Notes under the pieces: generated by a model
Told to the model about the DNA's origin: nothing
The model's input: the letters and a program-made list of their open reading frames with translations, nothing else
The model's database searches: none
Assembly: GCA_019096065.1 (NCBI GenBank)
Contig: JAGUCH010000002.1
Coordinates: forward strand, 9,808,501-9,872,500
DNA: 64,000 nt
Direction: 5' to 3'
Source of the DNA: Paracyclopina nana
Lineage: Eukaryota; Arthropoda; Copepoda; Cyclopoida; Cyclopettidae
Made by a program: the position numbers and the translations under genes
Shown: piece after piece, positions 11,158 to 15,306 of the stretch
How positions within the stretch are numbered: position 1 is the first letter of the stretch
How the letters are laid out: every line of letters starts with the position of its first letter

Positions 11158-14100
11158 TTATTGCTCAAGGATCGTCTTCACATTTTCCCATGTGTCATAG
11201 TCCATTTCAGGCTGAAGATCATTCATGATTCGCTTCGCCAATCGCGTCAGCATCTTGTTTTTGCTCCATCTCATCTCTCCATATAAATAAACGCCCATTG
11301 CTTGGTGTTCAACAAGATATTCTTCCAAGAACTGAAACTCCGCCACGACTTGGTGATGCACAATCAGTTCACACCATCTGTGCTGGATATCAGCGTTGCA
11401 CTTGTCCAGGCAGTAGATTTGTTTGAGTTTCACCAATCCAGCCTCCAGCTGAGCCCGATTTTTGAACACCACTTCATCTGCATTAATGAGATTTTCCAAC
11501 AGTAGAATCAATTGCTCCGGGAACAATGACGACTTTTCAAGAATCGCTTCTTCTCCCCCAACAACACGACGATTCCACGACCGTTTTTTGCATTTTCCTC
11601 CCATTTGCTTCAACCAAGCGTCCGTGAGCATCCGAACTTCCTCCAAAAGAGGGCTGTCCAGACTAGAACATTTCTCACTAACCCAATTTGGCAGCACTTC
11701 AGTGTCAAGCCAGGTCTTGCATATGCTGTTAGTATCCTCGTTTGCAATAATGTCATTACCACATTTTTCAAAGAAGAGAGCCAAAAAGTTGGTGGAATGA
11801 ACCAATCTCCCGTGGTATACTTCGTGAACGTAGAATCTGAGAAAGGCAAAAAAATCCTCCTCGCCCACTTTTTCGCACAGGTAGTGCAGCAAAAAGTACC
11901 CTTTTAGGTAATGAACTTGGGTGACGGCCATCGCAGGGTTTTGTCCATTTTTGACGTACTTGATGTCAGTGTTCACATCACGCAATTCTTGCCCTCCCAT
12001 GGGCCTAATTATCTGGTGATCAAGCGGAGTGCTCTTTAATTCCGCACTGAGTGTCTGATACCGAAGGAGGCATCTTAATTTGGACAGCTCATCCCAAACT
12101 GAATCACTGCAATAGTCGTCGTGACCTTTCGGCAAAAGAGACGGATACTGGCGAGAAAAGGCCTTCATTGCTTTTGTATGAATGAAATCCTCTGCGAACG
12201 TTGCAAAGCCCTGTAAGATAAAAAGGCTTAAATTATGCCCCTCGTAGTAAATCCAACAGAAGATTAAGGAAGAGTACCTTTGCAAGGAGCATTCACTTAC
12301 TTTCTATTTGATGCACAATTGAATCAGCTAAAAAGGACATTTAACACAGCTAAATTGGTTTTATTTAAAGCTAAATCTTTACAAAAGTTGCTCGCTTAGC
12401 AGTTAGCTAAGCAGCTGTGGCTATTTTCAATGCCAAAACCTTTTTCAGCAAAAGCACTTCGGCTTGAGCATGGGCTTGAGAATATTGCTACGGGTGATGC
12501 ATTAAGACGTGCTTTAGGCATCTCGCTAAAATCCTGTCAAAAACATGTTGCGAAAGAACAATAACATTCAAGAAATAGAATGTTTACAAAAGTGCACCTA
12601 ATGAATCATCAAATTGACAAAAAAGAAATCTTTACATTAGGTAACTTCGCACTACTTGTACCATTTTCCTTACACTTACGCCACTAAGAGCTTAATTCCA
12701 AAAAAGCGCTTAGTGCACTGGTGCACTGGCATCAATGTGCAACTCATAAGTAACTAATGTACTATGTGAGAGCAAGAAGTTAAAACCATTGCGAACACTG
12801 TTGTTGCAAAATCTTGAGCTTTCAAAGCACCCTCGTAAAAAGAACGCACTAAGCTTATTTTAAAGCGTTTTTTTCTCCTTTTTAGCGGCGAGTATAAAAG
12901 GCCAGTTTGCAGTTACAATAAACACACAATCATGAAGTTGCACCACGTCTTTCTGTTCCTCGTTTTTCTGCTAGAGCCCAAGTAAAACTGACACCAATGT
13001 AAGCCACTTAAATTGCATTGCACTAACAATTTCAGGGTGGAGGGAGGGCTGACAAAATCTGAGTACCTCAATTTTAAGCAATATGAACGCTCATTGGCAA
13101 GTAGCGTTTTGGAAAACCCATTGTATAACAAGGACCAAAGGCCACCTGGAATTGACAACGTTGGTAAGACATAATCAACCCAATCAGTACTTAATCTGTA
13201 ATTTTTGGTTGAAGACGATCACCTGGACATTACATTTTCTCTGTACATCCTTGATCTGGGCCTTTGCTCGCACAAGCAAAACCTTGTGATTGGAGGTTAT
13301 TTGCGACAATTTTGGACAGACCCTAGACTAGCCGTGGAAGGAGTGGAGCCCAAAAAAATTATTTACCAGCCAAGAGACATGTTCCAAAATAGCAGAATGT
13401 GGGTGCCAGACACATTCATAGTGGAAAGCCAAACTGGATTTCTAAGAGAAGCTGATACAGGAACAGGCAGGACATTCATCAGGCTTCACGCTGACGGCAG
13501 CGTCAAGAGCTCAATGCAGTATAAAATAACGTAAAAGTGGATTATGCTCACTGTTCTCCTATGAACCTACTTTTAGCTTTCACACCAAGGCTTTGTGTCC
13601 AATTCCGAAAAACACTCAAGAAGGAGATGTCGTTGAGTGTAGCCTTAACTTTGAAAGCTGTAAGTATTACGTCATGAAGATTAAAATTAAGTGAAGAGGT
13701 GTTTTTTTGCTCACACACAATATTTTGCAGATGGTTACACAAATAAGGACGTCCATTATCAATGGCAAGAGGATGCATGGGCAAGCGAACAAATTGCTAG
13801 TGAGGCACTCGAAAAACTTTCTAACTCCGGCTGGATCTTGAGTGACAGTAGAGTTGAAAATGGTACAACAGTACTTTCATTTGGTAAGAGTGCGGGTCTT
13901 TTTTAAAGATTATCACAATCATACCAATAATTATGCACTTATTTCAGGAGAGTACACAAACGCTAAGCTTGTTTTGACTTTCGAGAAAAAATCAACTAAG
14001 GAGGATTCATCCTCAGAAGAATAACTTTCACCATTTGAATCACTAACAATTTTTAACGCCTCGCTAAATATTTCGCGAGAATCCTACTAAACAATGAAGA

Positions 14101-15306
14101 AATAAATCACACTCACCTCTGATAGCCACTCTTCTGTCCAATCTAGCGCACCGATAAGAAGACCAAACCAGCTGTGGCTAATTTCGTGAGCTAACCGAAT
14201 TAGCATAGCAGTATCGGCATTTAACACGAGACTCTGAGAGACAAACATCAAACTGGGGCTAGATAATCCGAGTCCGGAGTAGCTTCTAGGTACGATTACG
14301 ATGTCCAGCTTCTGGAAGGGATGTGGGCCAATCAATTCATATGCACATTTGAGGCAAAGTGGAATATACGACTTCCAAAGTTCAGCCACTTTAGGCAGGA
14401 GTGATGTGGGTCCAACCAGCCTGCAAGGAATCAAGGGGCCTTCGTCGCCTCTTTCAATGTGACAAGGATAGTATTCGTGAAGTTTTTGACAAGGTTTTTC
14501 GCTTTGCGATACTTGATGGGACCGCTCAGTGATTTGCATACATTGCCACTTCCCAACGGCTACAGCAAAGGTTGACATGGGTAACACCATTTGTGTGTAG
14601 AAGTAGTGCTTTCCTTCTGGTGTTATCAGTGCATCTTCATCACCAGTGCACATAATAGAATATCCTTTGTCAACGAACAGGATGCTTTGCCACGAAGCCA
14701 TTGCAGTGGGAGGCTCTTGGCAAGGAAAAAGAGATCTACAGCAAAAAGCGGAAAGCGTAAAAAAATACATTTTCACAAGATGAACGCAATAACAAACCTG
14801 TTGTTCACCGCAGCAGCAGGCGTGAAAGCAGACTTACTCTGATCTTGATCAAGCCTCCACATCAAAGACTTCCCCTCCTTACTGGTTGTCCACTTAATTT
14901 TGATGACTTTCGGAAAAAGCCTCGACGAGTTTACGGAGGCTTTGCTCACTCTTATGCACCAAGGCTCAACCTTGAATGTCAGAGGCACTGATGATTTTTT
15001 CAACCATTCTTCCATTGCCGAGAGTTGCTTTCTTTTGCTGAAATCTTCCAATATTTCATTGGCCTCAGCAAGATGACAGACAACCTCTGATACTGACGAT
15101 ACTTCCAAGTGACGAGAATCGAGGATAAGCTCGAATGGCTCCTGATGAACATGATCTGGGCTAACTGAGGGGTCCAAAAACAGAACAGCCTCCCCGGTGA
15201 CAATTGATAGACTCATGTTAAACTCCATGACCATCATGTAATGACGGACTCTGATTATATCAGAATTAGCCATCAAAGGCAAGTCATTATCATGGTCAAC
15301 TTCCAT
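11158..15306 (-). CDS. AOPEP: Aminopeptidase O (M1 zinc metallopeptidase)
   Basis: Closely matches aminopeptidase O (human C9orf3/AOPEP, 819 aa), an M1 peptidase that removes N-terminal residues such as Arg. Exons are 15306-14798, 14735-14117 and 12210-11158, giving 726 aa; phases agree at both joins. Landmarks are the N-terminal DLPLMAN, LFPCQEPPTAM, the zinc site HEISH with the third ligand Glu in DWTEEWLSE, VHYLKGYFLL, the basic nucleolar-like segment CKKRSWNRR, HRWCELIVHH and QAMGVYLYGEM. Exon 1 is shorter than in vertebrates, which explains the smaller size. The second intron (12211-14116, about 1.9 kb) contains a complete gene on the opposite strand. The stop lies 8 bases from the TMEM254 stop. 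The 5' end is divergent with CD2BP2, about 350 bp away. Confidence 0.93.
12893..12900 (+). promoter_or_regulatory. TATA box of the nested ligand-binding-domain gene
   Basis: TATAAAAG lies 32 bases upstream of the start codon region of the nested gene (ATG at 12932), inside the second AOPEP intron and antisense to AOPEP. The predicted 5' UTR is therefore extremely short, as for the TATA-driven ABHD10 gene. Confidence 0.6.
12932..14024 (+). CDS. Secreted Cys-loop ligand-binding domain protein, GABA-A/Rdl branch, no membrane domain
   Basis: Six exons (12932-12981, 13036-13163, 13215-13530, 13577-13659, 13731-13883, 13948-14024) join in frame to 268 aa. A signal peptide (1-~15) is followed by a whole Cys-loop receptor extracellular domain: PLYNKDQRPPG, loop D GGYLRQFWTDPRLA (Rdl has FYFRQFWTDPRLAY), loop A MWVPDTF, FIRLHADGSV, a Cys-loop C172-C186 with the canonical 13-residue spacing, loop B NFESYGYT, and a loop C Tyr at 246. 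It ends with KLVLTFEKK and the acidic tail TKEDSSSEE where membrane helix 1 should begin. No helix-encoding exons follow, since AOPEP exons occupy the DNA. By-eye counterparts of Rdl orthosteric residues are Y88, R90, E191, S192, Y193 and Y246. The Cys-loop lacks the usual FPxD. I infer a soluble binding protein, perhaps for GABA or a related amino acid; the ligand is unproven. Confidence 0.85.

Follow-up and report, generated by a model that had tools for sequence, protein, structure and literature searches.

The window, meaning the whole 64,000-nt stretch of Paracyclopina nana DNA analyzed here (contig JAGUCH010000002.1, positions 9,808,501 to 9,872,500), contains a plus-strand gene of six exons at 12932 to 14024, referred to below as the target gene. 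Its spliced model has a coding sequence of 807 nt that translates into 268 amino acids and a stop, and all five introns are GT-AG, 46 to 71 nt long, and in phases 2, 1, 2, 1, and 1. A TATA-box-like pattern, TATAAAAGG (12893..12901, plus strand), begins 39 nt 5' of the ATG and is a putative promoter element. Exon 1 (12932..12981) supplies the ATG and, by gene model and hydropathy, a hydrophobic leader, MKLHHVFLFLVFLLEP, in which 11-residue windows reach 2.45. Exon 2 (13036..13163) encodes the N-terminal helix region of the binding domain, an element named by homology. The first sandwich strands follow in exon 3 (13215..13530), together with loops D (YLRQFWTDPRLA), A (WVPDTF), and E (FIRLHADG); alignment also places there C77, a cysteine without a partner, in the LCSHKQ sequence of the beta1-beta2 loop. 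Exon 4 (13577..13659) holds the Cys-loop, CPIPKNTQEGDVVEC, with 13 residues between its cysteines (C172 and C186), and the start of loop B (FES). The remainder of loop B (YGYT), the loop F region, the start of loop C, and the only N-glycosylation motif of the protein (NGT) lie in exon 5 (13731..13883). Exon 6 (13948..14024) encodes the loop C tyrosine (GEYT), the last strand, and a charged tail, KKSTKEDSSSEE, followed by a stop that replaces M1. All six exons are on the plus strand, as is a candidate poly(A) signal, AATAAA (14101..14106), 77 nt past the stop.

In a Pfam comparison that took matches up to E 0.1, residues 35 to 237 of the target protein match Neur_chan_LBD (PF02931) with an E value of 1.8e-20, covering profile positions 2 to 191 of 216; the other match, JetA (E 0.053), is below its cut-off. 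The closest solved relative in a PDB search, 9she (E 5.2e-19), carries the name GABA receptor subunit beta. The coding score of the target frame is 0.24, whereas the five remaining frames score -0.18 to 0.02 and the introns -0.20 to -0.03, all on a small training set. At the composition of the window, 268 stop-free codons have a chance probability of 5e-8. Because of these two homology matches, the open frame, and its coding score, we exclude chance as the origin of the target frame. Promoter, terminator, and tandem-repeat scans yielded nothing useful. The first-pass annotation of this DNA had described a leader like a signal peptide and a complete Cys-loop ligand-binding domain spread over six exons, with an acidic tail and a stop where M1 is due; gene model, Pfam, and the PDB match agree with that description, and its proposed GABA/RDL affinity is in line with the best PDB match.

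Minus-strand exons of an AOPEP-like M1 peptidase flank the target gene on both sides, at 14117..15306 (PF01433; one intron between) and at 11158..12210 (PF09127 and the C-terminal part of PF01433, the latter below its cut-off), with limits set by eye in both cases. The target gene therefore lies inside an intron of an AOPEP-type gene. The next plus-strand gene, which encodes a GYF domain, starts at about 15.65 kb, and the plus strand between the target stop and that point is mostly opposite the peptidase exons. Neur_chan_memb (PF02932) is absent from the target protein at E values up to 0.1; the 92-Mb assembly has 91 matches to this profile, none of them within the window, and on this contig the closest lies roughly 1.7 Mb from it. 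Since divergent members in this genome escape PF02932, we also searched the window by tblastn with membrane pieces of eight channels from the same genome, and the best of the 28 matches listed has an E value of 0.07. In a control search, two ECDs (extracellular domains) from this genome match the target gene at 7e-12 and 9e-7. The claim that AOPEP exons occupy the downstream DNA and leave no hidden membrane exons there agrees with these searches, none of which detects a membrane domain in the window.

Ligand site and coupling elements

We take 9she to be the insect RDL receptor, and we added 15 to its chain numbers to obtain the RDL numbering of the literature. Although only 48 of 137 aligned residues (35%) are identical between the target protein and 9she, seven of nine binding positions are (hypergeometric probability 0.009), in keeping with the earlier statement that most Rdl orthosteric residues are present. 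Retained are Y109, R111, F146, R166, S176, E204, and S205, among which we assume Y109 and R166 to be binding positions; E202 is replaced by N and F206 by Y. R111, S176, E202/E204, S205, F206, Y254, and F146 are named for RDL binding in the portion of PMC4019635 that was available. The 9she alignment stops before loop C; this loop was judged on an alignment with GABA-A beta3. There, the tyrosine Y205 is kept, whereas T202 is changed to F and F200 to L. We assume that the latter two beta3 residue numbers are correct and that beta3 Y205 corresponds to RDL Y254. Because of the changes at T202, F200, and E202, the affinity of the target protein, or its ligand, may have changed.

In the accessible text of PMC4178172, positions 37, 54, and 56 are argued to set the ligand class, including whether one-acid ligands bind alongside glutamate or in its place: R37 and R56 together go with the two-acid ligand glutamate, and a receptor with L37, Y54, and R56 also accepts one-acid ligands. 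The alignment gives L, Y, and R at these positions in the target protein, which under the rule as it stands in that part of the source makes it one-acid-type. With three cysteines in all, the target protein has no vicinal Cys pair of the kind found in acetylcholine-binding proteins.

Coupling elements have changed. In the Cys-loop, FPMD is replaced by QEGD in the alignment, which matches the expectation of an altered coupling loop; the first-pass annotation had considered the whole FPxD motif gone; F and P are indeed lost, whereas D is retained. The beta1-beta2 loop, which carries the unpaired C77, is also altered. By homology C77 faces the former membrane side; target pentamers may therefore be disulfide-joined through that side, and back-to-back pentamers are a testable idea only. 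In the available portion of PMC3423370, the single free cysteine of a snail AChBP, C71, in all probability gives disulfide-bonded subunit dimers and perhaps also di-pentamers; C77 lies in a different loop than C71. The motif around C77, LC(S/P)HKQ (13262 to 13279 of the window), also occurs at the corresponding place in three nicotinic genes described below (L042, L044, and L038), despite their belonging to the opposite branch of the superfamily. The DNA is similar there as well, and in the nicotinic genes an intron follows the motif, whereas there is none in the target gene.

Related genes and descent

We surveyed the assembly for further ECD-only genes. The 132 exon matches to PF02931 form 80 clusters, of which 33, including the target gene, have no same-strand PF02932 match in the 12 kb downstream. 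We read 19 of these in 9.9-kb loci and three in loci of 3.2 to 3.3 kb; the remaining 10, on C5, C7, and C8, were left out, and the ECD-only genes counted here are therefore a minimum. Membrane-like stretches follow the domain in 13 of the 19 clusters and in all three shorter loci (L013, L015, and L029 on C9), and we rejected these as ECD-only genes. Among the 13 are L031 to L034, L037, L041 (viewed in part), L043, and L045 to L049, as well as L039, a candidate for a third anion-branch ECD-only gene that was dismissed by eye on its M1- and M2-like stretches. Five of the 19 (L035, L036, L038, L042, and L044) lack such stretches within the gene, and the remaining one, L040, may belong to either group. 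Hydrophobic stretches do occur 0.6 to 1.8 kb 3' of L036, L038, L042, and L044, where they lie past the genes in separate open frames, some of which by eye resemble other receptors. Other channel genes were seen along the way: L032, L033, L043, and probably L031 are divergent Cys-loop channels with a putative LDL-receptor class A-like cysteine module ahead of the ligand-binding domain, and L023 (G000:C2:1838999-1842553) has both the ligand-binding and the membrane domain in an open frame of 902 residues that is lengthened at the N terminus by a long stretch of unknown type. No near copy of the target gene was found in the assembly. Searching 5.8 billion proteins yielded 426 candidates, none of which matched at 1e-3. 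This says nothing on other animals; because solved GABA receptors score down to 5e-19, we take that collection to be animal-poor.

L035 (G000:C2:6231500-6241400) is an ECD-only gene of the anion branch. Its five exons (1144-1190, 1238-1371, 1435-1502, 1598-1901, and 2601-2797 of the locus) encode 249 amino acids that end at the pre-M1 strand, and another long open frame starts about 200 nt past its stop. Its best PDB match is the Caenorhabditis elegans GluCl (3rhw; 3.9e-34, residues 42 to 243). L035 retains all eight glutamate-site positions (R37, T54, R56, S121, S150, Y151, T197, and Y200), compared to an overall identity of 75/197 (probability 3.5e-4), and like GluCl channels it has the loop C Cys pair. 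PMC4178172, in the part available, lists R56, S121, S150, Y151, T197, and Y200 as glutamate contacts and discusses R37; on the same partial source, R, T, and R at positions 37, 54, and 56 make L035 glutamate-type. In its Cys-loop, YPMD is replaced by EETG. L035 ends in NFESSEL and a stop, unlike L028, a GluCl-like gene of the same genome in which the reading runs through pre-M1, FARQLSFFIFTIYIPC, into M1.

The further ECD-only genes are nicotinic, at least two of them with a vicinal Cys pair in loop C like that of acetylcholine-binding proteins: L042 (250 amino acids) and L044 (242 amino acids) are complete five-exon genes with a leader, a ligand-binding domain (3.8e-43 and 5.7e-42, respectively), and a stop soon past the last strand. 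The best PDB match of L042 is the nicotinic alpha-9 ectodomain (1.7e-29). L036 has a nicotinic-like ligand-binding domain in one open frame (1.3e-33, profile positions 15 to 214 of 216) and lacks the Cys pair, and L038 is a broken copy of L044. Two RDL-type exons that are nearly identical, L052 and L053 (G000:C9:5268375-5269484), also lie next to each other in the genome. RDL is known for alternative exons, and these two are probably mutually exclusive alternatives.

We built trees of ectodomain pieces, in which the PDB rows are aligned pieces rather than whole chains and some rows from this genome (among them L002, L005, L009, L028, L039, L042, and L051) were joined by hand or script and may carry a few wrong junction residues. 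In the main tree of 24 rows, the target protein groups with the anion rows (GABA, glycine, and GluCl) against the nicotinic rows with support of 100/91. The target protein sits on a very long branch, with 2.7 to 9 changes per site depending on the tree; because of this, its origin within the anion branch does not resolve. In a reduced tree of 13 rows, from which 11 of the 24 (nicotinic rows, divergent rows, and L035) were dropped, the target protein joins the RDL rows at 94/90, not starred; when L035 is added to give 14 rows, nothing resolves. The phylogeny that the first-pass annotation had proposed as a check places the target protein, despite its long branch, in the anion branch; the RDL placement appears in the 13 rows only.

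In clade tests on the 24 rows, grouping the target protein with RDL costs 0.37 lnL (p 0.36) and with L035 8.8 lnL (p 0.23), whereas grouping it with two nicotinic ECD-only genes costs 25 lnL and is disfavoured (p 0.011). A single origin of all four soluble rows, a group that was named after the tree was seen, costs 31 lnL and is disfavoured (p 0.036). In the reduced set, a GluCl origin of the target protein costs 5.1 lnL (p 0.063) and a GABA-A origin, tested with two GABA-A PDB rows, 1.6 lnL (p 0.35). L035 joins GluCl at 87/80, not starred, in the 24-row tree. Overall, an RDL origin of the target gene, separate from a GluCl origin of L035, is favoured but not proven. Intron positions are common to the target gene and L035 at the leader, ahead of beta1, and within loop B; the last of these seemingly also falls at exon ends of L028 and L051 (judged by eye from translations). 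The shared positions make ordinary duplication, rather than retroposition, the probable origin of these genes.

Interpretation and comparison with known systems

The ECD-only architecture of the target gene is well supported, and it is strengthened by the GluCl-type ECD-only gene in the same genome. We consider it probable that the target protein is a secreted, pentameric, channel-less, RDL-derived protein that binds GABA or some other one-acid amino acid and acts as a buffer or carrier. It would have arisen from an RDL-type GABA-gated chloride channel by loss of the membrane part, would be made with a signal peptide and then secreted, and would assemble through the retained beta-sandwich interfaces, most likely as a pentamer. 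A small one-acid amino acid, GABA first and beta-alanine or taurine next, would bind between subunits, with R111 and S176 on one side and E204, S205, Y206, and Y254 on the other (RDL numbers). Lacking a pore, and with its coupling face altered, such a protein may serve as an extracellular ligand buffer or carrier.

A regulatory short subunit, which, rather than being secreted in a complex of its own, would co-assemble with RDL-type subunits in the ER and lower or alter their number at the surface, is an unlikely alternative. In its favour, the fold is kept across the whole domain, and RDL-type exons, in two near-identical versions, are present in the genome. Independence from a channel is instead indicated by the long branch and by the changes in the Cys-loop and the beta1-beta2 loop, and the parallel GluCl-type gene and the nicotinic counterparts better fit a soluble class. 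We think it improbable that a soluble protein retains the fold without the transmitter role, for example as a mineral-binding or structural protein that works through its acidic tail (KEDSSSEE) like the molluscan ACCBP variant, a precedent given in the available portion of PMC3423370. A purely structural role would not require the retention of binding positions above background that we observed in both the target protein (7/9) and L035 (8/8), and L035 has no such acidic tail.

We give little credence to a recently truncated channel gene or a decaying, functionless copy, even though the target gene is single in the assembly. Its 268 codons contain no stop or frameshift despite the long branch, its splice sites are intact, it has TATA-like and poly(A) signals, and its binding positions are kept above background; L038, by contrast, is visibly broken, and the existence of L035 makes an accident of decay less likely. 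Almost no weight falls on a hidden full-length channel with membrane exons that were missed or lie far off. PF02932 did miss the membrane domains of many divergent channels, as the 13 of 19 clusters with membrane-like stretches attest, and there is one hydrophobic stretch between the target stop and the next plus-strand gene, in a plus-strand frame from 14585. However, that frame lies opposite a peptidase exon on the other strand and by tblastn has no likeness to M1, the membrane pieces of eight channels find nothing convincing in the window, the plus strand up to about 15.65 kb is largely opposite peptidase exons, and the target frame has its own stop and candidate poly(A) signal.

If the target protein is a soluble amino acid binder as we propose, channels for more than one transmitter seem to have been converted into soluble binding proteins. 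We raise tentatively the further possibility that this lineage made secreted binders from a GABA channel, a glutamate chloride channel, and several nicotinic receptors, and so has an extracellular set of buffers for acetylcholine, for glutamate, and for GABA or a different one-acid amino acid. This would show that the step from channel to binding protein is a repeatable evolutionary route, in which coupling loops are lost and the ligand site is retained, and it would suggest that inhibitory transmitters are buffered outside the cells of an animal whose genome retains RDL- and GluCl-type channel genes. According to the accessible part of PMC3423370, soluble gastropod AChBP greatly helped nicotinic receptor studies; natural soluble GABA-type and GluCl-type ectodomains would help likewise for receptors that are targets of insecticides and anthelmintics. 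Among the matches listed in open-access literature on soluble or truncated Cys-loop proteins, so far as their text was available, there are nicotinic proteins only and no natural soluble GABA, glycine, or GluCl member.

Soluble relatives of nicotinic receptors are known from molluscs, an annelid, and a spider. Like the molluscan and annelid AChBPs, the target protein is a Cys-loop ectodomain with a ligand site, a variable Cys-loop, no membrane domain, and, presumably, a secreted fate. AChBPs are nicotinic and bind acetylcholine, whereas the target protein is in the anion branch and lacks their vicinal Cys pair; by analogy, AChBP is a functional model for the target protein, not its family. The available portion of PMC4569296 describes a putative AChBP of Cupiennius salei, an arachnid Cys-loop subunit completely without transmembrane regions and with an atypical Cys-loop of 16 residues, and in both respects the target protein is similar. 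That spider protein is nicotinic and, in the same portion of the source, the sole subunit reported without membrane regions; the Cys-loops of the 12 spider anion-type subunits described there are well conserved, unlike that of the target protein. With RDL, represented by 9she and by the exons L052 and L053 of this genome, the target protein shares the loop D pattern YxRQFW.DPRL and WVPDTF, and with 9she also R111, R166, S176, E204, and S205. RDL continues into M1 to M4, whereas the target protein stops, and in it both the F and P of FPxD and the sequence of the beta1-beta2 loop have been lost.
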